IMG/VR virus record: IMGVR_UViG_3300045996_002890
Span: 1 to 45,107 of that record
Length of the DNA stretch: 45,107 nucleotides
From: a virus
Reading direction: 5' to 3' (one strand)
A model generated the notes under the pieces. It ran no database searches. It was not told where the DNA came from and was given only the letters and a program-made list of their open reading frames with translations. Position 1 is the stretch's first letter; every line of letters begins with the position of its first letter. Shown piece by piece: positions 3,948 to 40,229 of the stretch. The position numbers and the translations under genes are program-made.

Positions 3948-3950
3948 CCG

Positions 3951-22003: not shown

Positions 22004-22036
22004 TTCCGTCTCCCTCGATCGCTTGCCCTTATGAGT

Positions 22037-22082
22037 AATACTCTAGGGTGCTGGAGGAGGAGAGTCAATACTCTAGGGTGCT
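22037..22082. promoter_or_regulatory. Two direct repeats of a putative operator
   Basis: The 16-base sequence AATACTCTAGGGTGCT occurs at 22037-22052 and again at 22067-22082, 30 bases apart, in the gap between the two reverse-strand genes. The core resembles the ACCCTAGGGTGG sites on the other side of the HTH gene. Likely binding sites for that HTH protein; inference. Confidence 0.65.
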
Positions 22083-22344
22083 AGACGTCAAGATTCTTTT
22101 GGCGGGCACGATGCCGGGTGACGGCCTTATTGATCGCCGACTCGGAGACGCCCAGGTCGTACGCCGCCCGCTTGTAGCTGGTCGCCTCGGCCAACTCTGC
22201 CACCGCCTCGTCGCCCACCTGAGAAAGCGTCGTCTTGGCCTGATCGATCAAGCGCCGCGCGCGCAGCGCCCGGTCCTCGGCGGGCAGGCTCGGCAGGGTC
22301 AGCAACAGTCGGGCAAGCTCGGCCACATCGTCAACGGTCGTCAT
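22081..22344 (-). CDS. Small HTH DNA-binding protein
   Basis: An 87-residue protein: an N-terminal helical part (TTVDDVAELARLLLTLPSLP) and a C-terminal helix-turn-helix, SYKRAAYDLGVSESAINKAV, with a basic end (TRHRARQKN). The start at 22344 is chosen because the longer upstream frame reads through the inverted operator repeats. CTAGGGTG-type repeats lie on both sides of this gene, strongly suggesting it regulates itself and its neighbours. Confidence 0.75.
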   Translation of the reverse strand: MTTVDDVAELARLLLTLPSLPAEDRALRARRLIDQAKTTLSQVGDEAVAELAEATSYKRAAYDLGVSESAINKAVTRHRARQKNLDV

Positions 22345-22355
22345 GTTTTGACCGT

Positions 22356-22388
22356 ACCCTAGGGTGGTGCATTGCGCCACCCTAGGGT
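22356..22388. promoter_or_regulatory. Perfect inverted operator repeat upstream of HTH gene
   Basis: ACCCTAGGGTGG (22356-22367), nine-base spacer, CCACCCTAGGGT (22377-22388). The arms are exact reverse complements and each contains the palindrome ACCCTAGGGT. It lies 12 bases upstream of the HTH start codon. Its match to the direct repeats at 22037-22082 suggests one regulator for all four sites. Confidence 0.75.
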
Positions 22389-22400
22389 GCTGGAAAGGGC

Positions 22401-23629: not shown

Positions 23630-23663
23630 GGCCGCCCCTCCTTCGGGAGGGGCGGCCTTTTTT
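23630..23663 (+). terminator. Strong terminator, 12-bp stem with TTCG loop
   Basis: GGCCGCCCCTCC (23630-23641), TTCG tetraloop, GGAGGGGCGGCC (23646-23657), then six T. Perfect stem and extra-stable loop. It lies between convergent genes and ends the late transcript after the HNH gene; the reverse direction lacks an equally good U-tract. Confidence 0.95.
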
Positions 23664-24035: not shown

Positions 24036-24479
24036 ATGGCGGACACCGAACGCACCGACAAGGGCCTGACGCGGGCCGAGCTCGAAGACGACGAGGACCT
24101 GACGCTCGGCCGCAAGATGATGCGAGGACTCACCCCGGCGGCCTGGGGGCCGCAGGCGCCGGAGGCCACCAACCCCCGCGACCCGTACGGCGCGAACCAG
24201 ATGGACGACGAGCAGCTGGCCGAGCTGCGCGCCCGCCTGGTCGCCGAAGCGGTCGAAGCTGGCCGGCGCTGCGAGATTTGCCCGGACCCGCCCGCAGAGA
24301 TCGTCCTGAACTTCGAGGTCGAGCACCTGCTGTGCACCGCGCACGCGGCGAAGGCCCGGAGGCTGCACGCCTACCAGGTCGACTTCTGGGGAGCCGAGCC
24401 CGTCACGAGCCGGATCATCCGCTGGGCACCTGACCGGCACGCCCGGTACGAGCGCCGTCGTCAGCGCCACCTGCGCTAG
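24036..24479 (+). CDS. Hypothetical protein with Cys/His motif
   Basis: A 147-residue protein. The N-terminus is acidic (ERTDKGLTRAELEDDEDLTL), then a Pro-rich part (GLTPAAWGPQAPEATNPRDP), and a second half with CEICPDPPAEIV and LLCTAHAAKARRL, a possible zinc site, ending with a basic tail. The ATG has a GGGGAGGCGAC ribosome site; the frame is open upstream but has no better start. It overlaps the end of the opposing AlpA-like gene by four bases. Confidence 0.7.
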   Translation: MADTERTDKGLTRAELEDDEDLTLGRKMMRGLTPAAWGPQAPEATNPRDPYGANQMDDEQLAELRARLVAEAVEAGRRCEICPDPPAEIVLNFEVEHLLCTAHAAKARRLHAYQVDFWGAEPVTSRIIRWAPDRHARYERRRQRHLR

Positions 24480-24903: not shown

Positions 24904-25194
24904 TTGACCAGCGCAATTGTCTTCGTACTGACCAAGCATCTCGAGACCGATGCGGGCCTCTGCATCGACTACTGCGCCGCCCGCGGCTACGACCTGGCCG
25001 CCCTCGTCCGTGACGACTGGGCCGCTGCACTCAGTGCTCTCCACATCGGAGTCGCGTCGATCCTCGTGGTCGCCAACGTCGACCATCTGGACGACTCGTG
25101 CACGCCTCGCATGGAGGTGGCGGCCGAGCTGCCCGTCGCCGAAGGACCGAAGGGCCGGCGCATCCGCATGCTCAGGAGAAACGGGGGAGCGTAG
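24904..25194 (+). CDS. Degenerate serine-recombinase N-terminal-like protein
   Basis: A 96-residue protein that follows the resolvase N-terminal pattern: AIVFVLTKHLETDAGLCIDY, CAARGYDLAALVRDDW, then ASILVVANVDHLDDS. In active enzymes the first strand reads Y-x-R-x-S; here it is VFVLTK, so the catalytic serine and first arginine are missing. A TTG at 24904 behind GGTGGGG is taken as start; a GTG at 24796 has no ribosome site. The end overlaps the integrase gene in convergent orientation by 23 bases. It may be a regulator or an inactive relic; function is inferred. Confidence 0.6.
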   Translation: MTSAIVFVLTKHLETDAGLCIDYCAARGYDLAALVRDDWAAALSALHIGVASILVVANVDHLDDSCTPRMEVAAELPVAEGPKGRRIRMLRRNGGA

Positions 25195-26029
25195 CCCTGG
25201 CCGCCCGCTGCTGCTCGTCGGTGGCCTGCGTGTAGATCTGCGTGGAGGTCATCTGCCGGTGGCCGAGCATCGCCATCGTCACGCGAATATCCTTATGCTC
25301 CCGCTGGATCGTCGTCCCGAGCCAATGCCTCAATTGGTGCATTGAGACAGGAAGCTTCAACTTCCGCTTGAAGTGCAGCGACGAGTAGACGGACACGTAG
25401 TGCGGTGTCGCCCGTTCCCCGGACCCCGGAACGCGCGCCACCGGCCCAGGCGGTAGATCCTTCACCGCCGCCCAGACGGCCGCATCGGTGTCGTGGACCC
25501 GAGGCCGGCCACCCTTCCCCTTAGCGAAGAGCTGCTGCTCGGTGATGTCCTGTCGGTCGAGCCGGGAGATCTCGCAGCACCTCAAGCCTTGATAGCTGGC
25601 GAGCAACGCCCACAGCCGGAACGGCTGGGCCGCCTCAGCCAGGATCCTCGCCAGCTGCTCGTCGGTGCACGCCCGCGCCACGCTGTCCGCCGTGCGCACC
25701 GGCGGCATCCCCTCGGTCGGGTTGGCCGAGATCCACGGATCGGCCGCGTCGGCCGCCCAACTGTAGAACGAGCTGAGGCAGCGCCAGTAGGTGGCCTTCG
25801 TGTTCTGCGACCAGCTGTCCCGGTAGAGCCAGCGCGACAGCTCCTCGGTGGAGACCTGGCCCAGGCCGAACGGCATGGCCCGGTCGAGGCGGGTGAGGAT
25901 CCCCCGCCGGTCAGTGATGGTCTGCTCGGGGCTTTCGCCGGCGCGGCGCAGGTGTTCGAGGTATTGCTCCACCATCTCCATGTCCTGACGATCCATCGTC
26001 GGTGCGTTCCTGGGCATCGGCTGGTTCAC
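25172..26029 (-). CDS. int: Tyrosine integrase
   Basis: Site-specific recombinase that inserts and excises the prophage; 285 residues. An N-terminal SAM-like core-binding domain (about 15-105, with WSQNTKATYWRCLSSFYSWA) is followed by the catalytic domain with R150 (GLRCCEISR), the beta-turn Lys region (AKGKGGRPR), H231 and R234 (HQLRHWLG), H257 (LGHRQ) and nucleophile Y266 (STQIYTQ). GTG at 26029 overlaps the repressor stop (GTGA), suggesting coupled translation. An ATG at 25995 with an AGGA site is an alternative start. Short length and no arm-binding domain are consistent with a compact actinophage integrase. Confidence 0.93.
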   Translation of the reverse strand: MNQPMPRNAPTMDRQDMEMVEQYLEHLRRAGESPEQTITDRRGILTRLDRAMPFGLGQVSTEELSRWLYRDSWSQNTKATYWRCLSSFYSWAADAADPWISANPTEGMPPVRTADSVARACTDEQLARILAEAAQPFRLWALLASYQGLRCCEISRLDRQDITEQQLFAKGKGGRPRVHDTDAAVWAAVKDLPPGPVARVPGSGERATPHYVSVYSSLHFKRKLKLPVSMHQLRHWLGTTIQREHKDIRVTMAMLGHRQMTSTQIYTQATDEQQRAARATLPRFS

Positions 26030-26460
26030 CGACGCCTGCGCGCGACGCGTGCCGTCCGGGCGACCGCGTTCGTGGCTGCGGCCCCAGGCTGCCTGGACGG
26101 CCGATTGTCACGCGGGCGATCTATGTGCCCTGCTGACTGTTCGGTTACCGTCGAGTACCCGTGGGTAGTACGCATCTCGCCCGCTTTGCCCGTTAGGCGC
26201 GGTCCGTCCAGCAGCCAGCCGTAGTCGGCGCCGGTCCGGTTCGCGATGAGCCGACACATCTCGGTGTAGCGGCGAGGCATGGCCCCGCTCTCCCAGGTGC
26301 CCCATGAGGCGGCCGGGATGCCGCATTCGCGTGCGGCCTCTTTGATGTTCCACTGCATCCGCTGCCGGACCAGCGCGAGTCTTGCCCCGAAGGTGCTGTC
26401 GTCGACGGTCCAGCCCTGCTCCAGGTTGCTGGGTCTGGGCTCCCCCTGCACGGCTGTCAT
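26026..26460 (-). CDS. Immunity repressor, Xre-type
   Basis: Probable lysogeny repressor, 144 residues from the ATG at 26460. Helix-turn-helix at about 24-60: FGARLALVRQRMQWNIKEAA, then ECGIPAASWGTWESG. A basic, disordered tail ends RVARRRR. A longer frame reaches 26517 but a promoter (TTGCGA, 16 bases, TAAGCT) places the transcript start at the 26460 ATG, so the message would be leaderless. It is divergent from the early operon, with operator-like repeats between, and its stop overlaps the integrase start. Confidence 0.85.
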   Translation of the reverse strand: MTAVQGEPRPSNLEQGWTVDDSTFGARLALVRQRMQWNIKEAARECGIPAASWGTWESGAMPRRYTEMCRLIANRTGADYGWLLDGPRLTGKAGEMRTTHGYSTVTEQSAGHIDRPRDNRPSRQPGAAATNAVARTARVARRRR

Positions 26461-26467
26461 AGGGCAC

Positions 26468-26495
26468 AGCTTACGGCCGTTGGCACAGATCGCAA
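26468..26495 (-). promoter_or_regulatory. Leaderless promoter for repressor and integrase
   Basis: On the reverse strand: -35 TTGCGA (26495-26490), 16-base spacer, -10 TAAGCT (26473-26468), then seven bases to the ATG at 26460. The predicted start point coincides with the start codon. Confidence 0.6.
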
Positions 26496-26528
26496 TGCAT
26501 CGGACATGATCCGTCATCTATGGCATAG

Positions 26529-26586
26529 AACCTGTCCTTGACACAGGTTCCTGCTTTACAGCATGATGCTGTCCATGACACAGGTT
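26529..26586. promoter_or_regulatory. Operator cluster of the genetic switch
   Basis: First site: AACCTGT (26529-26535), seven-base spacer, ACAGGTT (26543-26549). Second site: ATGCTGT (26566-26572), seven-base spacer, ACAGGTT (26580-26586). Both share TGACACAGGTTCC. Between them is the perfect palindrome ACAGCAT-G-ATGCTGT (26558-26572). The sites cover the -35, the -10 and the start codon of the early promoter, as expected for repression by the divergent Xre protein. Confidence 0.75.
26538..26575 (+). promoter_or_regulatory. Early promoter, predicted leaderless
   Basis: -35 TTGACA (26538-26543), 18-base spacer, -10 CATGAT (26562-26567), and the ATG of the first early gene at 26575, eight bases after the -10. 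The consensus -35 lies inside an operator. Confidence 0.65.
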
Positions 26587-26793
26587 CCCCCGCAAGAACC
26601 AGCTTCGCGGCCTGAGCTTCTCACGGCCAAGGAGGCTGGGGACGCCCTGGGCGGGATCAGCGACGAGACGGTCAACCGCTGGGCCCGCGAAGGCAAGCTC
26701 TCCCACATCACGCTCCCGTCGGGCCAGCGGCGTTTCCGCCGCGAGGTCATCGACGCGATCCTGGCCGGCACCCCGGCAACGGCCGTCGCATGA
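26575..26793 (+). CDS. Excisionase/Cro-like HTH protein, first early gene
   Basis: A 72-residue MerR/Xis-type protein: LLTAKEAGDALGGISDETVN, then RWAREGKLSHITLPSGQRRF and RREVIDAILAG. The fold suits excisionase or a Cro-like role. The upstream ATG at 26563 lies within the -10 element, so 26575 is preferred and would be leaderless. Its end overlaps the next gene (ATGA). Confidence 0.8.
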   Translation: MTQVPPQEPASRPELLTAKEAGDALGGISDETVNRWAREGKLSHITLPSGQRRFRREVIDAILAGTPATAVA

Positions 26794-27425
26794 AGACGAC
26801 GCAGTACATCCGCCAGGAGAACGCGATCGCCGCGGCCGACGCCGGCGGCATGCGCGAGCGCTGGATGTGGGGACTTCGCCTCCTCCGCGACGCCGACGCC
26901 TTCGCGCCGGGCAGCTCGCAGCTGAAGCCCGGCCGATCCGACGAACTCGTCGCCTCCGCCAAGGCCGCTGGACGCAAGCTCTCCGAGCGCGAGATCCGCC
27001 GTCGACTCCAGTGCGCCCGGGCCTACCGGACCGAGTCGGAATTCGGCCGGGCGGTGGCCGAATTCTCGTCGTGGTCCGATCTCGCCGACGCGAACTTCCC
27101 GCAGTTTCCCGGCGAGGACGGCGACCTCCCCGCGGACCACCGCACGGACACCGAGCGGAAGCGTGACTTCGCCCGCGCGGTTGCCGACATGGTTGGCGAG
27201 CAGGGGACGCTCTTCCCGCTCGACCGCTACGAGCCGACCGAGGCGACCCTCAAAGACCTTGAGGACTACTACGCCGAGATGTCCGGCCTGACCGAGCGCT
27301 TCGCAAAGCGGGACCGCGAGCGTCGCGAGTACCTCGACCGTCTGGCTGAGGTCGCCGCCGGCGACATGTCGACCACGTGGCAGTCCGCGCACACCCGCGC
27401 CTTCGGCGAGTCGGTCGCGGCATGA
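26790..27425 (+). CDS. Hypothetical early protein
   Basis: A 211-residue, charged, mostly helical protein. Notable parts: RWMWGLRLLRDADAF, GRKLSEREIRRRLQCARAYR (a helix pair that could bind DNA), and a C-terminal coiled region (LTERFAKRDRERREYLDRL). ATGA overlaps on both sides. It is the second gene of the early operon, a position often held by regulatory or DNA-binding proteins; no family assigned. Confidence 0.7.
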   Translation: MKTTQYIRQENAIAAADAGGMRERWMWGLRLLRDADAFAPGSSQLKPGRSDELVASAKAAGRKLSEREIRRRLQCARAYRTESEFGRAVAEFSSWSDLADANFPQFPGEDGDLPADHRTDTERKRDFARAVADMVGEQGTLFPLDRYEPTEATLKDLEDYYAEMSGLTERFAKRDRERREYLDRLAEVAAGDMSTTWQSAHTRAFGESVAA

Positions 27426-27859
27426 GCGACCCCGCTGGCCCGCCGGACACCCGGCCGCCGAACAAGCCGCCCACGACCCCGCCGCCGAAGCCGCCGACGA
27501 GCGACGCCACCTACGCCGATGCCCTGCTCGACGAGGTCGACCGGCTGCTGGCGGACCTCAAGAACCCGGCCCGTCAGGACTTTTCGCTGGCCGCGGTTGG
27601 GCCTGACGGGCCGGCCGAAACCACCCGTCCGACATCGGGTGAGGAGCGGTCGCCCCGCTCGCCCGTCGCACCTGCCACGGCGGCGCGCGAAGGTGCCGGG
27701 TCCCACATCCCCGGCCCAGGCGACAGCTTCAGCACCCCGCAGCCGCTGGGCCCGCCGCGCTTCGGCGAGGGCGAGCGCCGCCTGGTCGGCCGCGTCGGCG
27801 ACCCGGATGAGGTCGAGGCCGAAGTCCTGGCCCGGATCATCCGCGCGCTCCACACCTGA
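27422..27859 (+). CDS. Pro-rich hypothetical protein
   Basis: A 145-residue protein with a Pro-rich N-terminus (NKPPTTPPPKPPTS), a short helix (YADALLDEVDRLLADLK), a disordered middle and an acidic helical end (DPDEVEAEVLARIIRAL). Translationally coupled to its neighbours by ATGA overlap. No function recognised. Confidence 0.65.
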   Translation: MSDPAGPPDTRPPNKPPTTPPPKPPTSDATYADALLDEVDRLLADLKNPARQDFSLAAVGPDGPAETTRPTSGEERSPRSPVAPATAAREGAGSHIPGPGDSFSTPQPLGPPRFGEGERRLVGRVGDPDEVEAEVLARIIRALHT

Positions 27860-27927
27860 GACAGATGCGGGCCAGCCGATGCCCCGGCCAGCCCGCTCAC
27901 CCACCGGACTACCAGAAAGGACCTCCG

Positions 27928-28839
27928 ATGGACACCACCACCGTACCCAGCGGGCCCGTGCCGAACGAGCCGAGCGTGTGGGCCGACATCGCCGCCGAGC
28001 TGCGGAAGATCGCCGACGACTGCCTTGACCTGATCGGACAGCCCGCGCCGGGCTGCTTCGACATCGACATTCACCCGCTGCGCATCTCTCATCCGCCGGT
28101 CCTGAAGGAGCGCGCGGCCACGATCGAGGGGATCGACACGGTGGCCTTCGTCCTACTCGGCAAGAAGGCCGAGACCAGGGAGATGTCGGGCGGCTCGTTC
28201 CATCACACCGCAAAGGGACGCCGCGGGCCGATCACCTTCTCGATCTACAACGCCGTCGCCGACCCGGCCGCCGTCGACCCGGACGAGGAGATCGCCCGGC
28301 TGCGCGCCGAGAACGAGAAGCTGCGCGCCGAGCTGGGCGTCGAGGACCCGACCGGCCTGACGTACGGCCGTGACCCGGAGGCCGACCCGCAGCCCGCCGC
28401 CGGTCGCGTCCCGCCGCACTTCGAGCACGGCCGTGGCGCCCCGTTCGACGAGCCGGTTGGTCCGATCGTCCAGCTCGAAGCGAGCGGCCTGACCAAGGCG
28501 GCCGATCGGTCGCGCGGTCCGCTCGCGGGCACGACGCCGGTCGTCACCTACTTCAGCTTCGGCCATGGCCAGACCGACCCGGGTACCGGCAAGAACCTGC
28601 TCGACCACTACGTGACCGTGGTCGCGCCGACGTACGACGGGTGCCGGGAGGCGATGTTCGCCAGCCGGTTCGGGCGGGCGTGGTCGTTCGACTACCTGGC
28701 CGGGTCGGCGCGGGCCACCGAGTGGATCCCACAGTGGACCGAGCACGAGGTGATCGTCGCGCCGGGCACCGACGTGGGACTGGCCGACCACGCCCTGGCG
28801 GCGGCGGAGCTGGTGCTGCGCGGCGGGTCCGACCTCTGA
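27928..28839 (+). CDS. Hypothetical protein with central coiled coil
   Basis: A 303-residue protein. The first 100 residues form a folded domain (VWADIAAELRKIADDCLDLI). A short coiled coil, DEEIARLRAENEKLRAEL, lies near 114-131, then a Pro/Asp linker, then a C-terminal domain with TPVVTYFSFGHGQTDPGTG and YVTVVAPTYDGCREAMF. ATG at 27928 has an AAAGGACCTCC ribosome site; the open frame before it has none. Function unknown. Confidence 0.7.
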   Translation: MDTTTVPSGPVPNEPSVWADIAAELRKIADDCLDLIGQPAPGCFDIDIHPLRISHPPVLKERAATIEGIDTVAFVLLGKKAETREMSGGSFHHTAKGRRGPITFSIYNAVADPAAVDPDEEIARLRAENEKLRAELGVEDPTGLTYGRDPEADPQPAAGRVPPHFEHGRGAPFDEPVGPIVQLEASGLTKAADRSRGPLAGTTPVVTYFSFGHGQTDPGTGKNLLDHYVTVVAPTYDGCREAMFASRFGRAWSFDYLAGSARATEWIPQWTEHEVIVAPGTDVGLADHALAAAELVLRGGSDL

Positions 28840-28955
28840 TGGCCGCCGAGGAGTGCCCCGCCGCCGCCCCGCTCTGCCCGCTGTCCGGCATTCGCGGCTG
28901 CACCCACCGCCACCCGCCCCGGCCTTCCCGCTGGCGGCGCTGGCTCAAGCGCTGA
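28839..28955 (+). CDS. Tiny Cys/His protein
   Basis: A 38-residue ORF starting at a TGATG overlap with the previous gene. It has four cysteines and HRH (ECP, LCP, GCTHRHPP) and a basic tail RWRRWLKR, like many small metal-binding phage proteins. Short length keeps confidence moderate. It is the last gene before the hairpin array. Confidence 0.5.
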   Translation: MAAEECPAAAPLCPLSGIRGCTHRHPPRPSRWRRWLKR

Positions 28956-28960
28956 TCTCC

Positions 28961-29145
28961 CGTCGCGGCTCCTCTTCCCCGAGGCCGCGACGGACGCCAG
29001 GCAGCGCGCCCCCGCGCGCCTGGCAGGCCCGGACCGCTTACCGCCATGAGCGGTCCGGGCCCTCGAACTCCGAGCGCCGGGAGCTCCCCCCGGGAAGGCC
29101 GCTCGGAACGGCCCGGGGGCTCGGGGAGCGCCGAGCCCCCGGGCC
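28961..29145. ncRNA. Array of five consecutive GC-rich hairpins
   Basis: In the 234-base gap between two early genes. Stem 1: CGTCGCGGC (28961-28969) with 28984-28992. Stem 2: GCCAGGC (28996-29002) with 29018-29024 plus GCGCG/CGCGC and a CCCC loop. Stem 3: 13 bp, 29026-29038 with 29049-29061. Stem 4: CGAGCG (29071-29076) with 29100-29105 and an inner CCGGG/CCCGG. Stem 5: 15 bp, 29110-29124 with 29131-29145. None has a T-run, so they are not ordinary terminators. The array could be a structured RNA or a DNA element; class unknown. Confidence 0.6.
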
Positions 29146-29189
29146 ACCTTCACCGACTTCAGCTGAACCTCCTGAACGGACATATAGCG

Positions 29190-29633
29190 ATGACCAGCCA
29201 GACCCTCTCCAGCCCGCACGACACAGACCCGCGCCTCATCCACGAAGGCGCCACCGTCCGCCTCACGCCGCCCGGACCGCGCCCGTCGCCGCTACCCCGA
29301 GCCGACCTGGCCGACACCCTCGTCGTGCCGCTGCCGAAGCGCGAGGGCTTCTTCCTGCCGGACACCACCCACCCGGACACCATGCCGGTGCCGCCCCGCC
29401 CGCCGCAGAAGTTCCAGCCCGACACGACCGGCTCGCCCCAGCCGTACCCGGCGCCGGTCCCGGCCGGCCCGAAGCCGCGCAACCTGAAGGTGCTGGTGCC
29501 GCTGGAGCGCGAGGAGCCGAAGGGCTACGTCGGCCAGCACCGCGACCCGCAGGGCCGTGAGGGCGGGTCGGGCTACGTCGGCCGCCACGTTCGCCCGTCG
29601 ATGCTGAGCCGCGTGTTCGGCGGCGCTCGATGA
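29190..29633 (+). CDS. Pro-rich hypothetical protein
   Basis: A 147-residue, Pro/Arg-rich protein with little predicted fold, except LKVLVPLEREEPKGYVGQHR and a repeat of GYVG near the end (GYVGQH, GYVGRH). ATG at 29190 is chosen because the in-frame ATG at 29046 lies in a hairpin loop and has no ribosome site. The start region here is also weak. Function unknown. Confidence 0.6.
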   Translation: MTSQTLSSPHDTDPRLIHEGATVRLTPPGPRPSPLPRADLADTLVVPLPKREGFFLPDTTHPDTMPVPPRPPQKFQPDTTGSPQPYPAPVPAGPKPRNLKVLVPLEREEPKGYVGQHRDPQGREGGSGYVGRHVRPSMLSRVFGGAR

Positions 29634-30058
29634 CCACGCCGAACGCCGAGCTGGCGTACAAGGTGCTCGATCAGATCGACCTGCACCCCGAGCTGTGGGA
29701 CCAGGCTTCCTGGTCGAAGGGCTGTGGCACCTCGTACTGCTTCGCCGGGTGGGCGCTCACGCTGGCCGGTCGCACTCTCCGCGACTACGAGGGTGACGAC
29801 GGTATTCGCCGTATGCAGCTGGACGACACCCGCGAGGTGCTCAGCGGCACCGTGAGCCTCGCCGCCAGCCGTGAGCTGGGCCTCACGCATTGGGATGGCG
29901 AGCTGCTCTTCGAGCCGGACAACACCCGCGAGGCACTGGGCGAGCTGGTCGCCGAGTTCTTCGGCCCGCGCCCCGACCCGAAGCCGTCGCTCGACCGCCA
30001 CCCCGTCGAGGCCGCCATCTACGACGACGTCGCGCCGAACGCCGGGAGCGAGTCGTGA
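29630..30058 (+). CDS. Conserved-type hypothetical protein
   Basis: A 142-residue protein with NAELAYKVLDQIDLHPELWD, then a CGTSYCFAGWALTLAG motif and LAASRELGLTHWDGELLFEP. I recall this layout from other actinophage early regions; its function is not known to me. The two cysteines may pair or bind metal. ATGA start overlap. Confidence 0.7.
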   Translation: MTTPNAELAYKVLDQIDLHPELWDQASWSKGCGTSYCFAGWALTLAGRTLRDYEGDDGIRRMQLDDTREVLSGTVSLAASRELGLTHWDGELLFEPDNTREALGELVAEFFGPRPDPKPSLDRHPVEAAIYDDVAPNAGSES

Positions 30059-30261
30059 AGCGCCCGTCGCACGACCTGCTGATGCAGGTCACTGATCTCC
30101 TCGCCAAGGCCCGCGACGTCGAACGCGAGGCGGGCAATCTCGGCACGGCCATGGTCTTCAACGACCTCAACCTCGCCATCTTCAAGGCCGCGCTGGACAC
30201 CGAGTTCGACGCCCGCGCCAACGCCGAGTGCGCCGCGCGCTACCCCGAGGGCGGTGCCTGA
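30055..30261 (+). CDS. Small helical hypothetical protein
   Basis: A 68-residue helical protein (KRPSHDLLMQVTDLLAKARD, then LGTAMVFNDLNLAIFKAAL). The GTG start overlaps the previous stop as GTGA; the longer open frame is a shadow. No function recognised. Confidence 0.6.
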   Translation: MKRPSHDLLMQVTDLLAKARDVEREAGNLGTAMVFNDLNLAIFKAALDTEFDARANAECAARYPEGGA

Positions 30262-30407
30262 TGGCCAAGCCCACCCGCGCCCAGCAGGAACACGCCAACC
30301 GCGACCGCCCCCTGCACGAGGGCGAGCCGCTGAGCGAGGCCGAGCAGCGCCGCATCGAACGCGCCCAGGAGCGCCAGCTCGACGACCAGCGGAGGGCAGG
30401 CCAGTGA
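30261..30407 (+). CDS. Tiny charged protein
   Basis: A 48-residue, highly charged helix (LSEAEQRRIERAQERQLDDQ) with start TGATG and end GTGA overlaps that fit the operon pattern exactly. That spacing is the main support. Function unknown. Confidence 0.5.
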   Translation: MAKPTRAQQEHANRDRPLHEGEPLSEAEQRRIERAQERQLDDQRRAGQ

Positions 30408-30670
30408 ACACGACCGTCATCAAGCAGCCGGGCGTCAAGCACGGCCGGGTCATCGAGCGCCCCGCGAAGGAGCTGACCGACGAGGCCGCCAACCGGGTCA
30501 CCGCCGCGCTCGCCATGCAGGGCATCCTCGTGCGGCCCGTCGTCGACGTCTTCCACACCGTGCACCTGTGGGCCGCCGAGCCGTTCAGCACCGCGCAGGA
30601 GGTGGCCGCCCTGGCCGCGTTCCTCGACGTCACCGACTGCCGCCTGGCCTTCCATCAGGCGGCCCGATGA
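30404..30670 (+). CDS. Hypothetical protein
   Basis: An 88-residue protein: KELTDEAANRVTAALAMQGI, LVRPVVDVFHTVHLWAAEPF, then QEVAALAAFLDVTDCRLAF. Looks like a compact alpha/beta fold. Coupled by GTGA and ATGA overlaps to its neighbours. No family recognised. Confidence 0.6.
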   Translation: MNTTVIKQPGVKHGRVIERPAKELTDEAANRVTAALAMQGILVRPVVDVFHTVHLWAAEPFSTAQEVAALAAFLDVTDCRLAFHQAAR

Positions 30671-30921
30671 GCCGGATCGCCAGCATTCAGGCCCAGGTCT
30701 TCGACGACCTGTTCAACGACGGCATGCGGAAGGTGCGCGAGAAGCGTGGCCTGTCGCGCCGCCAGCTGGGCGAGCGGGTCGGCATGCCCGAGTACACGAT
30801 CGGCCAGATCGAGACCGGCTACGGCAAGCCGCGCCGGCGAAGCGCGACCGTCGGCGAGGCCATCGTGCTGGCCGAGGCGCTCGAAGCGAAGGTCGGCGAC
30901 CTGATCCGGGGTGAGTCGTGA
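30667..30921 (+). CDS. Xre-family HTH protein
   Basis: An 84-residue DNA-binding protein with a classical Cro/CI helix-turn-helix: MRKVREKRGLSRRQLGERVG then MPEYTIGQIETGYGKPRRRS, and the following helix VGEAIVLAEALEAKVGDLI. Possible early regulator. It directly precedes the recombination nuclease gene and may control it. Confidence 0.8.
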   Translation: MSRIASIQAQVFDDLFNDGMRKVREKRGLSRRQLGERVGMPEYTIGQIETGYGKPRRRSATVGEAIVLAEALEAKVGDLIRGES

Positions 30922-31766
30922 CCGCCGTCGAGCTGGCCCCGGGCGTCCATGAACTGCCCGAGGCTGAGTACCACGCCCGACCCGAGCTGTCCTCGACCGG
31001 CGCCCGGAAGCTGCTCGCCCCGTCGTGCCCCGCGCTGTTCCAGTACGAGCGCGAGCATGGCGGGCCGACCAAGCGCGTCTGGGAGATCGGCTCGGCCGCC
31101 CACAAGCTGGTGCTCGGCAGCGGCCCGGACCTCGTCCTCGTCGACAAGGCGCGCTGGGACACCAATGAGATCAAGGCCAAGCTCGCTGACATCCGCGAAG
31201 ACGGCGGCATCCCGCTCAAGCGGCCCGAGTACGACGCCGTGATCGCCATGGCTCAGGCCCTCGGTGAGCACCCGTTCGCGGCCAAGCTCTTCGAGCCCGG
31301 CACCGGCCAGGCCGAGCAGACGCTGATCTGGAAGGACAAGGAGACCGGCGTCATGTGCCGGGCCCTGCTCGACTGGCTGCGCTTCCCGATGCCCGGCTAC
31401 CGCCTCGTCGTGCCGGACTACAAGTCCTGCGCCAGCGCCGAGCCCGGCAAGTTCGCCCGGGCCATGGCCGACCACGGCTACCACATCCAGCTCGCCTGGT
31501 ACCTGGCCGGCATCCGCGCCCTCGACCTCGGCGACGACCAGGCGGTCGGGCTGCTGGTCGCGCAGGAGAAGACCCCGCCCTACCTCGTCACCGTGCTCCA
31601 ACCCGACCAGAGCGCGATGCGGATGGGCGAGATCCGGATGCGCGAGGCGCTGCGCACCTACGCCGAGTGCACCGCCTCGGGCGTCTGGCCGGGCTACGCC
31701 GAAGACGTCGTGCAGGCCGAGCTGCCGCCCTGGGAAACCCGAGAACTGAACGGAGTCATCTGGTGA
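30918..31766 (+). CDS. RecE-like PD-(D/E)XK exonuclease
   Basis: A 282-residue nuclease of the phage RecE/DUF3799 type, expected to resect double-stranded DNA ends for annealing. Visible motifs: H62 in IGSAAHKL, D152 in CRALLDWLR, D167-Y-K169 in VVPDYKSC, and Q191 with Y195 in YHIQLAWYLAG. It lies two genes upstream of a probable annealing protein, the usual exonuclease-annealase pairing. Start GTG overlaps the preceding stop. Confidence 0.88.
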   Translation: MTAVELAPGVHELPEAEYHARPELSSTGARKLLAPSCPALFQYEREHGGPTKRVWEIGSAAHKLVLGSGPDLVLVDKARWDTNEIKAKLADIREDGGIPLKRPEYDAVIAMAQALGEHPFAAKLFEPGTGQAEQTLIWKDKETGVMCRALLDWLRFPMPGYRLVVPDYKSCASAEPGKFARAMADHGYHIQLAWYLAGIRALDLGDDQAVGLLVAQEKTPPYLVTVLQPDQSAMRMGEIRMREALRTYAECTASGVWPGYAEDVVQAELPPWETRELNGVIW

Positions 31767-31963
31767 CTTACTTCAAGGTCAATATCCGGCTCGACGAGAT
31801 GACGCCGCTGGAGCCGAACGCCCAGGGCTACCCGCGCATGGACACCGACACCCTCGCCGACCTGACCCTCACGGGTTCGTCCGAAGAGGACGTGCTGTTC
31901 CAGGCCTCGAAGCACGTCCTGACGCTGCACGACGCCTACGAGAGCAAGAAGGACCCGCGATGA
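31763..31963 (+). CDS. Small protein between nuclease and annealase
   Basis: A 66-residue protein: VTYFKVNIRLDEMTPLEPNA, then DLTLTGSSEEDVLFQASKHV. Short strands and a helix; no Cys. GTGA and ATGA overlaps tie it to the recombination genes. Might assist them; inferred from position only. Confidence 0.6.
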   Translation: MTYFKVNIRLDEMTPLEPNAQGYPRMDTDTLADLTLTGSSEEDVLFQASKHVLTLHDAYESKKDPR

Positions 31964-32898
31964 CCAACGCTATCGACCGGCCCGCGACGGTCGTGCCCAC
32001 CCCGAGCCACGTCGGCCAGGCCACCGCGATCGAGCAGTCCCGCGCTGCCGCCGAGGTCGCCGCTGCCGTGCACGTCGCCCAGGCCAACCCGCGCAACATG
32101 CAGGCCGCCCTCGCCGAGATGCGCGAGAGCTGCCGCCAGATCCGCCTCGCCGAGCGCGCGTTCTTCCGGTACAGCCGGGGCGGAAACAACGTCACCGGCG
32201 CCACCGTCCACCTCGCCCGCGAGCTGGCCCGCTGCTTCGGCAACGTCCAGTACGGCATCGCCGAGCTGCGCCGTGACGACGCCGGCGGCTACTCCGAGAT
32301 GCAGGCCTACGCCTGGGATGTCGAGCGGAACACCCGGTCAGCGCAGATCTTCGTCGTGCCGCACGTCCGCGACACCAAGCAGGGCCAGAAGCAGCTGACC
32401 GACCTGCGCGACATCTACGAGAACAACGCCAACATGGGAGCCCGCCGCCTGCGCGCCGCGATCTGGGCCATCCTGCCGCCCTGGTTCGTCGACGAGGCCG
32501 AGGAGATCTGCAACAGCACGCTGGCCGACGGCGGCGGAGTGCCGCTGCCCAAGCGGATCGCGGACTGGATCGCCGCGTTCGGCCGCCAGGGCGTGTCCGT
32601 GATGCAGCTGGAGCAGAAGCTCGGCCGCGACTCGGGCCGCTGGACGGAACACGACGTCGCCCAGCTCTCGGTGATCGGCAAGTCGGTTGCCCGAGGCGAG
32701 ACGCGCATCGAGGACGAGTTCCCCGCCGAGCGCGTGACCGCATCGGAGCTGACTGCCGCAACGCCGAAGGCCAGGGCCGCCTGCGGGTTCTCGACGCCGG
32801 ACGGCGCGTGCACGCTGCCCGCCGGCCACCCGGTCGGCCCGGACCTCGACGGCTTCGACGGCCATGACGTCGTCCCGGGCGGTGGCACCGATGCGTGA
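31960..32898 (+). CDS. Probable single-strand annealing/recombination protein
   Basis: A 312-residue protein of a type I recall from actinophages next to RecE-like nucleases. Key stretches: IEQSRAAAEVAAAVHVAQAN, PRNMQAALAEMRESCRQIRL, AERAFFRYSRGGNNVTGATV, DLRDIYENNANMGARRLRAA and IWAILPPWFVDEAEEICNS. The C-terminal 50 residues add a Cys/His part (ACGFSTPDGACTLPAGH). A RecT-like role is inferred from partner and pattern; it was not tested against RecT structures. Confidence 0.65.
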   Translation: MTNAIDRPATVVPTPSHVGQATAIEQSRAAAEVAAAVHVAQANPRNMQAALAEMRESCRQIRLAERAFFRYSRGGNNVTGATVHLARELARCFGNVQYGIAELRRDDAGGYSEMQAYAWDVERNTRSAQIFVVPHVRDTKQGQKQLTDLRDIYENNANMGARRLRAAIWAILPPWFVDEAEEICNSTLADGGGVPLPKRIADWIAAFGRQGVSVMQLEQKLGRDSGRWTEHDVAQLSVIGKSVARGETRIEDEFPAERVTASELTAATPKARAACGFSTPDGACTLPAGHPVGPDLDGFDGHDVVPGGGTDA

Positions 32899-33100
32899 GC
32901 TGTCCGCCTGCCGCAAGGCGATCCTCAACCTCCTCCACGCCGGCGAGTCCACCGCCATCCGGCTGGCAGTCATCCTCGGCCGCGAGCACACCAACGTCTC
33001 CCGCGACCTGCGCTTCCTGCGCGACGCCGGTCTGGTCTCGCGCCAGCTCGACGGCAGGCGCTACCTCTACTCACTGACGGCGGCGGGAGCAAAGCGGTGA
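32891..33100 (+). CDS. Winged-helix DNA-binding protein
   Basis: A 69-residue ArsR/MarR-like winged helix: SACRKAILNLLHAGESTAIR, LAVILGREHTNVSRDLRFLR, then a wing DGRRYLYSLTAAG. Starts inside the end of the previous gene. Likely transcription regulator. Confidence 0.75.
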   Translation: MRELSACRKAILNLLHAGESTAIRLAVILGREHTNVSRDLRFLRDAGLVSRQLDGRRYLYSLTAAGAKR

Positions 33101-33276
33101 GCACCGTCAACTGGGCCCGCTTCCGCAAGTGCCCGTCGTGCGCGGCGGCGCTGGGCCAGCCGTGCGTGCTGCTGGCCGGCGCGATCGAGACGAACGGCGT
33201 GGCCGACCCGAACTCGCCCGAGCGCTCCGCCCCGCACCGCAACCGCAAGCTGCGAGCGGGGTACGGCCGTGGCTAG
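33097..33276 (+). CDS. Zinc-ribbon mini-protein
   Basis: A 59-residue protein with NWARFRKCPSCAAALGQPCV and a late PHRNRK. The C-x2-C-x7-C-xn-H pattern is shared by a small actinobacterial zinc-finger family. GTG start overlaps the preceding stop. Function unknown; nucleic-acid or protein binding is possible. Confidence 0.7.
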   Translation: MSTVNWARFRKCPSCAAALGQPCVLLAGAIETNGVADPNSPERSAPHRNRKLRAGYGRG

Positions 33277-33640
33277 CTCACTGGAACCGCTGCACATTCG
33301 CCGCATGCTCGGCCGCTCGAACTGGTCGACGCCGATCCCGTGGGGGCCGGACGGCTGGGCTTACAAGAGCCTCGACGGTGCCGCCTCGGTGATCGTCACC
33401 CTCGGCCTGCACGACGGTGACGAGTGGCTGCACGCCTCGTTCGCCCGGCCCGACTCGATGCCGACGTACGACGACCTGAAGGCGCTGCACGCGGCCGTCT
33501 TCGGCGATGGCTGGGCGTACCAGGTCTTCGCGCCGCCGAGCGACCACGTGAACATCCACAGCTTCGCGCTGCACCTGTTCGGCCGCTTCGATGGCAATCC
33601 CGCCCTGCCCGACTTCACCGAGGGAACGGGGTCGATCTGA
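33269..33640 (+). CDS. Conserved-type hypothetical protein
   Basis: A 123-residue protein with DEWLHASFARPDSMPTYDDL, KALHAAVFGDGWAYQVFAPP, and DHVNIHSFALHLFGRFDGNP. This strongly conserved-looking segment is widespread in phages in my memory, but no activity is known to me. It overlaps both neighbours. Confidence 0.75.
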   Translation: MASSLEPLHIRRMLGRSNWSTPIPWGPDGWAYKSLDGAASVIVTLGLHDGDEWLHASFARPDSMPTYDDLKALHAAVFGDGWAYQVFAPPSDHVNIHSFALHLFGRFDGNPALPDFTEGTGSI

Positions 33641-33921
33641 TGAGCGTCTGGCTTCGCCGCGTCGTCAACCGGATGGTCACGCCAGTGGACCGCCCCGGCG
33701 CCGACGACCTCAGCATCGTCCCCGGCCTGTTCCCGTCGGTGCCCGACGACGCGATCGCCCAGCTCGCCACCGAGCAGGAGATCAGCGACCTCGACGACAA
33801 GATCTGGAAGCGCCACGTCGCGGGCCACACCGCCGACCGGGACCGGCTGCTCGACCAGCGCAACCGGCTGCGGGCAGCCCGGCCGACGCACGTGCCCGTC
33901 ATCCCGGGACGGCCGTCGTGA
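33640..33921 (+). CDS. Helical hypothetical protein
   Basis: A 93-residue protein: VPDDAIAQLATEQEISDLDD and IWKRHVAGHTADRDRLLDQR, a likely helical hairpin, with a Pro-rich end. Overlaps adjacent genes by TGATG and GTGA. No function recognised. Confidence 0.65.
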   Translation: MSVWLRRVVNRMVTPVDRPGADDLSIVPGLFPSVPDDAIAQLATEQEISDLDDKIWKRHVAGHTADRDRLLDQRNRLRAARPTHVPVIPGRPS

Positions 33922-34124
33922 GCTACCACCTCGGCCGGTCCTGGCCCGGCGACACCCACATCGAGGACGTCTGCCCGTGCCCGAAGCAGCCGTGCGGCCT
34001 CGTCGACACCGACAAGACCAGCCCCGACTGCGACCAGCACCACGTTGGCAACGGCCATCACGCCAGGACCACGCGCCAAGGGCATGCCGCCGAGCGCTGC
34101 CCCGGCGCACGGGAGGCGTCGTGA
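33918..34124 (+). CDS. Cys/His-rich mini-protein
   Basis: A 68-residue protein with CPCPKQPCGLVDTDKTSPDC and DQHH, plus a later HH and C. Multiple metal ligands suggest a zinc-bound fold. Similar small proteins recur in actinophage early operons. Function unknown. Confidence 0.65.
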   Translation: MSYHLGRSWPGDTHIEDVCPCPKQPCGLVDTDKTSPDCDQHHVGNGHHARTTRQGHAAERCPGAREAS

Positions 34125-34267
34125 CCCAGGTGATCGCGGGCGTGATCGCGCTGCTGCTGGTGATCGCCGCCGCCGGGGCGATGACCCTGCTCGGCAACCA
34201 GCTCGACCCCCACAACCGCGAGGCCGACGACGAGGCGGCCGAAGAAGACCGGAGGCGACTGCGATGA
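34121..34267 (+). CDS. Small single-pass membrane protein
   Basis: A 48-residue protein: hydrophobic segment VIAGVIALLLVIAAAGAMTL followed by an acidic-basic tail (READDEAAEEDRRRLR). Coupled overlaps on both sides. Unknown role at the membrane. Confidence 0.6.
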   Translation: MTQVIAGVIALLLVIAAAGAMTLLGNQLDPHNREADDEAAEEDRRRLR

Positions 34268-34845
34268 CCGACCCGATCGAGACCGGCCCCGAGGCCGCCG
34301 CCTACATCAAGTCGGTCATCCGCGACGGCGTGGTGATCCGCACCGACGAGCCCAACTGGAACCCGTCCACCTCGGCCCAGCTGCGTGAGACGCAGGCCGC
34401 CCTCGCCGCCTCGCAGGCCGACCTGACCGCGATGGAGCGCGAGCGCGACGAGGCGCGCGAGGACGCGGCCAGCGTTCGTCGCTCGCTCGACCACGCCAAC
34501 GGCCACCGCGAGGCCTTCCTGCGCCAGCGGGACGAGGCGATCGCAGAGCTGGCCAGCGCCCGCACCGAGCTGGAGCAGCTGCGCCGCGAGGTACGGATCC
34601 TCGGCTGGCAGCTCGCCGCGGTCGTGGAGTTCGCCAGCGCCTACCAGCCCAACGCCGAACGCGGCTGGGCCGTCGCCATCGTCCACGACAAGCCGTGCGC
34701 CACCTGCAAGCAGGACATCACCTGCGGCCAGGCGTACGCGCGGCTGCCGGGCGCGAAGGGATCCGTCCACGTCGTCTGCCCGCCGCCCGAAGACCCCCCG
34801 AGCGCGCCCGTGCCGGGGCACCACGAAGGAGCAACAGAGCAGTGA
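34264..34845 (+). CDS. Coiled-coil protein with C-terminal Cys motif
   Basis: A 193-residue protein. Residues about 38-117 form a coiled coil (AMERERDEAREDAASVRRSL, ELASARTELEQLRREVRI). The C-terminus has CATCKQDITCGQAYARLPG and VHVVCPPP, a probable zinc site found in other actinophage proteins. Function unknown. Confidence 0.7.
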   Translation: MTDPIETGPEAAAYIKSVIRDGVVIRTDEPNWNPSTSAQLRETQAALAASQADLTAMERERDEAREDAASVRRSLDHANGHREAFLRQRDEAIAELASARTELEQLRREVRILGWQLAAVVEFASAYQPNAERGWAVAIVHDKPCATCKQDITCGQAYARLPGAKGSVHVVCPPPEDPPSAPVPGHHEGATEQ

Positions 34846-35675
34846 ACCGATACCTGACCGCCGCCCTCGCCGCGGTCGTCCTGGCCCTCGCCATCCCCGG
34901 CACAGCCCAGGCCACCGAGGGCACCGCGATCGACGCCTGCGTGCCCGGCTGGTACGTCAACCCCGACGAGACCGACAACAAGCCGGAAGCCACCGAGGCC
35001 GGGCTGAAGTTCGAGGGCAAAGACCTCGCCCACCACGAGCACCGGCCGCTCGACCTCGCCGACGTCCGCGCCGGCAGCTTCGTGGCCGACGGCGACGCGG
35101 GCAAGCTCTTCATGAAGCTCGAGACGACCGCGCCGTACTCCACGATCGTCGTCACCGGCGAGGGCACGTTCTGGTCCACGGCCATGACCTACGACCAGGA
35201 GGGCGGCCAGGGCAAGCCGGTCGCCAAGGTCTCGGACCTCGTCGGCAAGCCCACCAAGCCGGGCAAGCCCGCGCTGACCGCCGACACCAAGGTCGTCACG
35301 TTCGGCGTCGGCTATGCCACCGAGGCGGGCAGCACCGTCGTGTCGTCGATCCGCTTCCACGGCACCACGTACGACGTCACCTGCAAGCCGGAGCCGACCC
35401 CGACTCCGACTGTCAGCGCCTCGCCGTCGGTGTCGCCTTCGCCGTCCACCTCGGCCAGCGTCTCGCCGTCGGCCACGGCCAGCGTCACGGCCACGCCCAC
35501 CGGCAGCGCCTCGGCCAGCCCGACCACCGTGCCGGGCAACGCAGGCGGAGAGCCGGGGCTGCCGGTCACCGGGCCCGCGCTGAAGGTCGGCGTCGGAGTC
35601 GGCCTGATCCTGCTCGCCACCGGCGCGGTCTTCGTCTTCTTCTCCCGCCGCCGCCGCAACCGATTCGAGGCCTGA
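34842..35675 (+). CDS. Secreted LPxTG wall-anchored protein
   Basis: A 277-residue exported protein. Signal peptide at 1-24 (MNRYLTAALAAVVLALAIPG, then TAQA). Globular part about 30-182 with two cysteines, C33 and C181. Ser/Thr/Pro stalk at 185-230. Sortase signal LPVTG at 240-244, hydrophobic helix 246-267, and a positive tail RRRRNR. Host sortase should attach it to peptidoglycan. Made from an early gene, it could alter the infected or lysogenic cell surface, for example against superinfection; that is inference. GTG start after GAAGGAGCAACAGAGCA. Confidence 0.85.
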   Translation: MNRYLTAALAAVVLALAIPGTAQATEGTAIDACVPGWYVNPDETDNKPEATEAGLKFEGKDLAHHEHRPLDLADVRAGSFVADGDAGKLFMKLETTAPYSTIVVTGEGTFWSTAMTYDQEGGQGKPVAKVSDLVGKPTKPGKPALTADTKVVTFGVGYATEAGSTVVSSIRFHGTTYDVTCKPEPTPTPTVSASPSVSPSPSTSASVSPSATASVTATPTGSASASPTTVPGNAGGEPGLPVTGPALKVGVGVGLILLATGAVFVFFSRRRRNRFEA

Positions 35676-35678
35676 CCC

Positions 35679-35957
35679 ATGCCGAAGTTCCGCAAGAAGC
35701 CCGTCGAGATCGAAGCCATCCAGTGGACCGGTGACAACGCGGCTGAGCTGAACCACTTCGCCGCCAGTCATTTCGACGTGCTCGACGAGCAGGACCGGGC
35801 GAACTGCGACGACCCCGAGGCGACGGCTCAGATCTTCGACGTCCTGCACTCGACGTGGGTGCTGGTCCAGACCAACGACTGGATCATCCGGGGCGTTCAG
35901 GGCGAGTTCTACCCCTGTCGCACCGACGTCTTCGAGGCCACGTACGACCCGGCCTGA
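35679..35957 (+). CDS. Widespread phage hypothetical protein
   Basis: A 92-residue protein starting PKFRKKPVEIEAIQWTGDNA and ending with DWIIRGVQGEFYPCRTDVFE. This start and ending are a recognisable phage family found across many phages; its biochemical role is not known to me. It follows the wall-protein gene by three bases. Confidence 0.8.
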   Translation: MPKFRKKPVEIEAIQWTGDNAAELNHFAASHFDVLDEQDRANCDDPEATAQIFDVLHSTWVLVQTNDWIIRGVQGEFYPCRTDVFEATYDPA

Positions 35958-35967
35958 CCTGACCGCA

Positions 35968-35994
35968 CCGGTGCCCGATGTCAACGGGCACCGG
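35968..35994 (+). other. Intergenic hairpin, 10-bp stem
   Basis: CCGGTGCCCG (35968-35977), loop ATGTCAA, CGGGCACCGG (35985-35994). No T-run follows, so it may slow or process the transcript rather than end it. It separates two coupled gene blocks. Confidence 0.65.
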
Positions 35995-36018
35995 GGCCCC
36001 CTTCGACCAGGAGACCTC

Positions 36019-36165
36019 ATGCCCAAGGAATTCACCCACTCCCGCGTCTATCCGCTGCGGCCCCGCATCTGGCCGTGGCTCGTGTTCGCCCTTGCCCTGG
36101 CCCTCGTGCTCGGCCTCGGCCTGTGGGCGTTCGTCGCAACCACCGGCGGAGAGGGCGGAAACTGA
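36019..36165 (+). CDS. Small single-pass membrane protein
   Basis: A 48-residue protein with one hydrophobic helix (IWPWLVFALALALVLGLGLW, continuing AFVATT). ATG at 36019 has a CCAGGAGACCTC ribosome site and is preferred over an upstream ATG inside the hairpin loop. Followed by another membrane gene. Confidence 0.65.
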   Translation: MPKEFTHSRVYPLRPRIWPWLVFALALALVLGLGLWAFVATTGGEGGN

Positions 36166-36638
36166 TGATCGACCACAACGGAGCATGGCTCCCCAGTGTC
36201 TACCTCTGGCTGCCCGTGCTGGCCGTGGCCACTCTGATCAGCCTGGCCTTCACGGTCGTGGCCATCCTCGCCTCGTCCATCAAGGACGAGCGCGGTCGGC
36301 GCGACCATGAGCACTGGTTCATGGCGTGGCTTGGCCCGACCGCCCTGCTGTGCCTGATCATCGGATCGGCGTTCGGCTACTACCCCTACGACGGCGACTA
36401 CCACAAGCTCCAGCCCGCCAGCGGTGTCGTGCAGGCCGTCGACAGCCGCTTCCTCGCCGCCTCGCAGTACGTCGTGGTCACCTACGACACCGGGCTCACC
36501 GTGCGCTGCGACGACAGCCGGTGCGCCACCGTCCGGCCCGGCGAGATCCTGCGCCTGCTGTGCACCAAGGAGCACCAGTTCGGCTCGCCGCTGGCCGCCG
36601 ACGGCTGGGGCTGCCGATGGGGTGGCACCGATGGCTGA
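36165..36638 (+). CDS. Two-helix membrane protein
   Basis: A 157-residue protein with hydrophobic segments at about 12-34 (LWLPVLAVATLISLAFTVVA) and 53-70 (LGPTALLCLIIGSAFGYYPY), then a soluble domain with YVVVTYDTGLTVRCDDSRC and LCTKEHQFGSP. Membrane-linked, function unknown. TGATG overlap at its start. Confidence 0.65.
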   Translation: MIDHNGAWLPSVYLWLPVLAVATLISLAFTVVAILASSIKDERGRRDHEHWFMAWLGPTALLCLIIGSAFGYYPYDGDYHKLQPASGVVQAVDSRFLAASQYVVVTYDTGLTVRCDDSRCATVRPGEILRLLCTKEHQFGSPLAADGWGCRWGGTDG

Positions 36639-40001: not shown

Positions 40002-40229
40002 ATGGCGATCAAGAACACAGCGACAGGCGGCGTGTTGGCGTATCGAACACGTGTCCACCTGGGAGAATGTGGTGCCCGGGAAAGGCGCTGCGAACGCCAG
40101 ATCCCGGGACTAAGGCTCCATTCCGTCATTACCCCGGAAGGAGACCTTGCGGTGACTATCGCATGGCTCAGCCCTCTGTCGCAGCCCCACCACGGCGTGT
40201 CATTTAGCACCATCCGGACCGGTGACTAG
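40002..40229 (+). CDS. Doubtful small protein upstream of initiator
   Basis: A 75-residue frame with a GAGGCGACA ribosome site before ATG and a TAG overlapping the next GTG start by one base (TAGTG), both points in favour. Codon use is less G/C-biased at third positions than neighbouring genes, and the frame contains a second hairpin, points against. No function or family seen. The stretch may instead be a structured non-coding leader. Confidence 0.35.
   Translation: MAIKNTATGGVLAYRTRVHLGECGARERRCERQIPGLRLHSVITPEGDLAVTIAWLSPLSQPHHGVSFSTIRTGD
40075..40108 (+). other. Second structured hairpin upstream of initiator
   Basis: CCCGGGA (40075-40081) with TCCCGGG (40102-40108), and inside it GGCG (40084-40087) with CGCC (40095-40098) around CTGCGAA. 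It lies about 120 bases before the replication gene. Confidence 0.5.

Follow-up and report, generated by a model that had tools for sequence, protein, structure and literature searches.

The locus studied here raises the question of what a chain of GC-rich hairpins is doing in a gap between the early genes of a phage. The window (the whole stretch of DNA that was analysed) is a 45,107-base virus record, taken to be that of a temperate phage of soil actinobacteria. Genes were assigned by profile search unless otherwise stated. The integrase (25172-26029) and repressor (26026-26517) genes are on the minus strand and an excisionase-like gene starts at 26563 on the plus strand. A probable early, pR-like promoter (26538-26567, plus strand; TTGACA, 18 nt, CATGAT) lies where the repressor and the excisionase-like gene diverge, in the gap that separates them. 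It was the sole sigma70-like match obtained in a consensus scan of positions 25900-36200. Further along the plus strand, an early gene of unassigned function (27865-28839; PHROG 13997, E 1e-7) encodes a protein of 324 aa for which the Pfam search gave no match. Its stop is overlapped by the ATG of a possible small ORF of 38 codons (28839-28955, plus strand; read from the sequence), and the stop of this ORF at 28955 lies 4 nt upstream of hairpin 1. The first gene of the downstream block (29190-29633, plus strand, 147 aa) is taken to start at 29190, as supported by a start-site motif common to relatives; its product had no family match in the profiles and no relatives by search. This block contains a RecE-like exonuclease gene (30918-31766, plus strand), and an O-like replication initiator gene is found at 40229-40927 (plus strand). 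The hairpin cluster is located 2.4 kb downstream of the 26538 promoter. It separates the immediate-early genes from the block that contains the recombination genes, and its last hairpin ends 44 nt before 29190. The gap had been described as free of genes. It does precede the start taken as real, at 29190, but long chance ORFs run across the hairpin region.

The five adjacent inverted repeats announced in the original prediction were recovered on the plus strand at 28960-29145, the true left edge being 28960, one base to the left of 28961. Hairpin 1 (28960-28993) has a perfect 10-bp stem and a pyrimidine-rich loop of 14. Hairpin 2 (28996-29024) has 12 bp (7 + 5) with one bulged A and a loop of 4. 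Hairpin 3 (29026-29061) has a perfect 13-bp stem plus two weak loop pairs. Hairpin 4 (29069-29107) is composed of an outer stem of 8 bp and an inner stem of 5 bp separated by an internal loop. Hairpin 5, the last one (29110-29145), has a perfect 15-bp stem with the conserved base GGCCCGGG/CCCGGGCC and forms the covarying core of the family. The spacers measure 2, 1, 7 and 2 nt, within the spacing that defines a hairpin cluster (at least two hairpins less than 15 nt apart). Both perfect stems mentioned in the prediction (13 and 15 bp) are present, with that of hairpin 1 as a third, and the stem said to be interrupted by a single bulge is that of hairpin 2. The stated lack of T-runs was confirmed behind all five hairpins on either strand, as was the lack of a repeated unit in the cluster: no direct-repeat family was found inside 28961-29145. 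The leader that follows (29146-29189, plus strand) is C-rich, G-poor and weakly structured, and carries the start-site motif GGACATATAGCG; the motif GGACATAGAGATG or a near form of it occurs in many relatives.

Folding was compared with that of shuffled sequences, the control suggested with the prediction. The plus strand of 28956-29150 folds at -144.7 kcal/mol versus -104.8 +/- 4.6 for dinucleotide shuffles (z -8.7), and none of the 200 shuffles folded as well. For the minus strand of the same segment, z was -5.8, again with 0/200 shuffles as good. Among 473 stretches of 190 nt tiled over the record, the one starting at 28976 had the lowest energy (-127.3; mean -82.0, sd 10.0). Three perfect stems of at least 13 bp were found in the window, two of them in the cluster; about 0.1 was expected per window from 10 order-2 Markov sequences.

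Relatives were collected from metagenomic viral contigs, two Actinoplanes genomes and further genomes of the same family, using the C-terminal domain of the 324-aa protein (28504-28770) as a marker. The structure of this domain was predicted with low confidence (pLDDT 65.7). The marker was detected in 7 of 300 genomes of the host family, and in one of the 394 class genomes drawn, which was the starting genome itself. None of the isolated phages in the phage collection matched the marker domain or, at the DNA level, positions 27000-31000. A scan with the start-site pattern GGACATANAGATGAMC returned at least 120 stretches; those with at least 60% GC were examined, many of them being chance matches. 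The table of 25 homologous junctions omits the L012/L018 sequence, which ends inside the junction. The 25 junctions came from metagenomic phages and Micromonosporaceae prophages, including Actinoplanes palleronii NBRC 14916 (L023/L145). The gap is filled with one to five hairpins in 24 of the 25 junctions: three junctions have one hairpin, 11 have two, nine have three, the window has the maximum of five and L136 has a gap with none. Two or more hairpins, as in a hairpin cluster, are present in 21/25. In 24/25 junctions the first hairpin begins 2-10 nt past the upstream stop, inside the limit of about 80 nt from a stop codon used for U-less cluster terminators, and the last one ends 29-67 nt short of the next start. 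The number and the sequence of the hairpins vary among relatives. The junctions that fold least well compared with mononucleotide shuffles are L032 (z -1.8), L186 (-1.9), L184 (-2.3) and L019 (-2.4); most are well beyond these values. The hairpin cluster is a conserved element at a fixed place in the relatives. The Actinoplanes italicus type (L144, L175; outside the 25) has the marker gene but neither a gap nor a cluster of this kind; since the gap of L136 is devoid of hairpins too, the element is considered dispensable. In the Streptomyces phage OnionKnight, which has the same RecE-like gene, no such cluster was found in the gap behind the excisionase gene.

Hairpin clusters were then counted with an energy-based finder in 331,730 bases from 34 sources whose GC content was 62% or more; duplicates were removed and phiC31 was excluded. 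This finder was used as a strict no-bulge hairpin finder does not recover the window's own cluster. Groups of at least two strong hairpins less than 15 nt apart numbered 26, of which 13 are at the junction (the window, L004, L005, L011, L012, L014, L015, L016 and L145-L149). All five groups of at least three strong hairpins are at the junction (the window, L015, L145, L147 and L149); the window group is scored as three (28960-29061) in this count, some of the five being below the threshold. In 400 kb of order-2 Markov control sequence, there were eight pairs and no larger group.

Paired changes were analysed in the last hairpin. The other hairpins could not be aligned among relatives, the first-hairpin alignment (A4) being too divergent for use. 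The base GGCCCGGG/CCCGGGCC of the last hairpin is conserved and mostly followed by ACCC; its upper stem and loop are variable. When 18 sequences were aligned by MAFFT unaided, 76.5% of the cells were paired and the covariation score was 0.133 versus 0.056 +/- 0.016 after shuffling (0/500 as high). With 24 sequences, 87.4% were paired and the score was 0.175 versus 0.073 +/- 0.015 (0/500), a comparison in which kinship among sequences can beat shuffles even without structure; slid controls of the 24 sequences were all at or below 0.063. Both sides had changed in 18 cells belonging to six pairs of this alignment. One pair is GC in nine sequences, CG in six, AU in two and GU in two. RNAalifold predicted no consensus structure on the 18-sequence alignment. 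A covariance model was built from these 18 sequences. The window is one of its rows, with a match at 29105-29192 that contains hairpin 5. The model found the members L005, L184, L185, L186, L188 and L191, all with an identical layout, and gave a weak antisense match in L150. Matches with E<=0.01 were obtained in 37 of the 300 genomes; among the 14 loci inspected, five were accepted by context (L184, L185, L186, L188 and L191) and nine were not, L199-L211 lying outside the inspection. The model-fitted alignment (A6) includes antisense palindrome rows and was excluded from the counts. If the plus-strand RNA alone were selected, G-T mismatches in the stems should exceed A-C mismatches. The ratio was 11 to 3 with the symmetric finder (binomial 0.057, related loci counted) and 10 to 6 on the alignment (binomial 0.45). 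A search for covariation in relatives had been proposed with the prediction, and the one stem that can be aligned is maintained by paired changes. Of the identities first considered, a structured RNA gains from these data: the shuffles and the paired changes support a structured, probably transcribed element.

The leaders between the last hairpin and the start are weakly structured, with 39% C and 20% G. None of 18 leaders contained a TANNNT or TTGAC/TTGCC motif, that is, a host-type promoter motif; a phage-specific promoter with another consensus may be present in the leader. Since no host-type promoter motif was seen behind the cluster, the latter may sit inside one transcription unit, and its transcription probably begins at the 26538 promoter. 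The downstream gene would then, most simply, be read from a transcript that crossed the hairpins. In the 16 junctions tested, zero to two T were counted in the 8 nt after the last hairpin, the sequence being mostly ACC or ACCC. A consensus terminator scan gave no hit at the cluster, and a canonical L-shaped (T-run) terminator was rejected because no T-run directly follows the stems. A T-run terminator of the window is located between convergent genes at 23630-23663 and consists of a perfect 12-bp hairpin (23630-23657) and TTTTTT. Hairpins with T-rich tails also exist elsewhere in relatives (L011 271-299, L059 347-378). As a separate observation, CTTCGCA(CC)-type repeats (two to four copies, often about 12 nt apart) were seen in 8 of 24 leaders (L014, L015, L011, L145, L147, L184, L185 and L188), where they lie past the last hairpin and ahead of the ribosome-binding site. 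L136 has similar CTTCGCA-type repeats upstream of the start, the hairpin being absent.

The reading that we favour, with a probability of about 0.45, is that the cluster is a U-less hairpin-cluster terminator or attenuator placed between the immediate-early and the recombination/replication genes. It was preferred because of the position just past a stop codon, the serial hairpins, the parallel with phiC31 and the existence of a published class of hairpin clusters. The five hairpins would act as one junction element within a rightward early operon. Transcription would start at the pR-like promoter at 26538 and cover the immediate-early genes as far as the stop at 28955. The RNA made next would be tiled with tight hairpins (28960-29145), after which come the leader, with its weak structure, and the ribosome-binding site for the block from 29190 (RecE-like exonuclease, later replication genes). 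Each hairpin of the nascent RNA would pause or release a share of the RNA polymerases. The downstream block would be made little or late unless elongation was rapid or coupled to translation, or a factor of phage or host origin modified it. We infer that the cluster is transcribed and that it lowers transcription, and likewise any role in timing. The C-rich tail argues against an attenuator, as it is unlike what a classical intrinsic terminator needs, and so do the T-tailed hairpins found elsewhere in the same phages. The dispute over U-less termination by mycobacterial RNA polymerase, the weak outcome of the mismatch comparison as a sign of an RNA role, and the lack of the element in the Actinoplanes italicus type and in L136 also count against it.

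The closest parallel is phiC31. Reportedly, U-less terminators of its early region were described by Ingham in 1995. As in the window, U-less GC-rich hairpins are found in this actinophage early region a few nt past a stop and tens of nt before a start. In the phiC31 record, the hairpin is 6 nt after the stop and 35 nt before the start in the gap 24305-24387, and 6 nt after the stop and 48 nt before the start in the gap 31149-31241. The phiC31 gaps mostly have one hairpin, sometimes beside CCTACTCACGTGAGTAGG palindromes, whereas the window site and its relatives have up to five head-to-tail hairpins and the window no repeated palindrome. Early promoters of phiC31 lie between the terminator and the gene, an arrangement with no visible counterpart in the window. 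The host side offers a second parallel. In PMC8355165, hairpin clusters less than 15 nt apart, at most 80 nt from a stop codon and without a U-run are proposed as intrinsic terminators. The I-, U- and V-shaped classes described there have a reported mean stem of 7.4 bp and are proposed for host operon ends. I-shaped terminators have also been described for mycobacteria in PMC12288462, and U-less termination by mycobacterial RNA polymerase has been disputed in print (references 135 and 137 of PMC12288462). The window cluster resembles the class of PMC8355165 in spacing, in distance from the stop and in having no U-run. It differs from it in that a co-directional phage gene starts 29-67 nt past the cluster, three of the five window stems are perfect with 10-15 bp, and conservation with covariation is seen at one and the same site. 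The initial statement that such a chain is not explained by terminators was too strong, given that U-less clusters past stop codons are proposed as intrinsic terminators in PMC8355165, and I-shaped terminators are described for mycobacteria in PMC12288462.

A second reading, the main rival of the attenuator though less probable, is that of mRNA punctuation. RNA polymerase would read through the junction. Lying in the untranslated gap, the hairpins would bar the way to 3'-5' exonucleases, prevent Rho from loading and stop ribosomes from carrying over, with the result that the two halves of the early mRNA, upstream and downstream, would be independent of each other in stability and translation. 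This fits a gap that is tiled from the stop codon on and leaves mainly the leader single-stranded, as well as the narrow range of distances from the last hairpin to the start codon. The tail reads ACCC instead of being T-rich, although hairpins with T-rich tails do occur in these phages, and the downstream gene, with no promoter motif past the cluster, seems to need read-through. Intercistronic hairpins in read-through transcripts are known from the RNase III sites of the T7 early region and from REP-type elements, which the cluster resembles in this respect; unlike in them, no conserved cleavage site or repeated unit was seen in it. For punctuation a single strong hairpin would suffice, and a series of two to five is more suggestive of a brake.

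It is unlikely that the junction is instead controlled by a factor, with the last hairpin and the C-rich leader RNA as a landing site for a phage or host factor, or Rho, that switches on downstream elongation as at lambda tR1/nutR or HK022 put. The lambda tR1/nutR terminator follows the early rightward promoter and sits between the immediate-early genes and those of replication/recombination. The window cluster has a similar place in the early operon, between immediate-early and recombination/replication genes and 2.4 kb from the early promoter. The conserved stem base with its ACCC flank, the C and G contents of the leaders and the CTTCGC repeats of some of them are compatible with such a site. 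In boxB and put, the sequence of the loop and upper stem is conserved; in the last hairpin, it is not. Rfam covariance models gave no match at the gathering score in the whole window, which speaks against a known riboswitch, sRNA or leader family, and a lambda nut or HK022 put RNA was rejected on both grounds. The cluster also differs from tR1/nutR in having several strong hairpins, with no boxA/boxB or N-like protein recognised. No antiterminator gene was recognised among 20 different proteins scanned.

An element acting as DNA, such as a palindromic operator, an unusual promoter or a recombination or replication site, is improbable. Perfect palindromes can serve as protein sites and the last stem base GGCCCGGG is conserved, but the sequence of the upper stems is not conserved and changes in it are compensated, the hairpins differ in number and sequence among relatives, and no -10-like motif was found in 18 leaders. 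The replication site put forward in the original prediction was not supported: the O-like initiator gene (40229-40927) and origin-like iterons of the ACACCCGACG type lie at 40.2-40.9 kb, 11 kb away, and the cluster has no direct repeats. A replication origin at the cluster was rejected on the same basis. Within the O-like gene, ACACCCGACG(GAAAG) units in direct and inverted orientation occur at 40570-40705 and likely mark a lambda-type replication origin. Mobile palindromic repeats were also rejected, the cluster having no match in the record other than itself and its palindromes. Weak short matches to the cluster were obtained in 214 of 354 host-family genomes (best E 5.7e-6); three of nine inspected loci were plainly a conserved ABC-type coding gene, and we read these matches as probably due to composition or coding rather than as copies. 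Finally, strong folding is normal in GC-rich DNA and L032 and L186 only mildly beat their shuffles, but a chance product of 70% GC sequence is practically out of the question given the shuffle z-score of the window, the cluster counts, the conserved place in the 25-junction comparison and the covariation.

U-less hairpin clusters as proposed terminators are already known in kind. What is new is that temperate phages and prophages of the Micromonosporaceae have a junction array that is conserved yet changes fast, comprises as many as five hairpins and has a last stem that covaries. In the literature listings and abstract openings, no description was found of this array or of the separation of early from later genes in Micromonosporaceae temperate phages. 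It is doubtful, if conceivable, that the array represents a new class of early-operon switch in these phages. In such a switch, a fast-changing series of one to five long GC hairpins, the last flanked by ACCC and kept by compensatory change, would control elongation into the recombination/replication genes, through attenuation relieved by some factor, or shield the junction from Rho or nucleases. Whether actinobacterial RNA polymerase stops at U-less hairpins is argued both ways (references in PMC12288462), and the junction offers a natural test set. The same phages hold T-tailed hairpins as well as U-less hairpins at a fixed place in 24/25 junctions. Read-through across such a set would reveal how the temperate phages of the Micromonosporaceae keep early and later genes apart.

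Other features were noted during the analysis. The upstream gene is otherwise variable among relatives, and C-(L/V)-W-H-(S/A) can often be read by eye in the small ORF that stops at the cluster (L015, L016, L145, L146, L148, L149 and L184). Just past the junction of L004, a gene for an alanine-rich repeat protein contains a 12-base repeat of the GCTGGGGCCGCC type in about 25 copies (3785-4100). In the window, repeated CTAGGGTGCTGGA-like sites are present at 22035-22085 and 22356-22395, with one inverted repeat ACCCTAGGGTGG...CCACCCTAGGGT, and are operator- or stoperator-like. A single 10-bp hairpin at 35968-35994, soon after a stop and before AGGAG and the next ORF start, reproduces the layout of the cluster in miniature.
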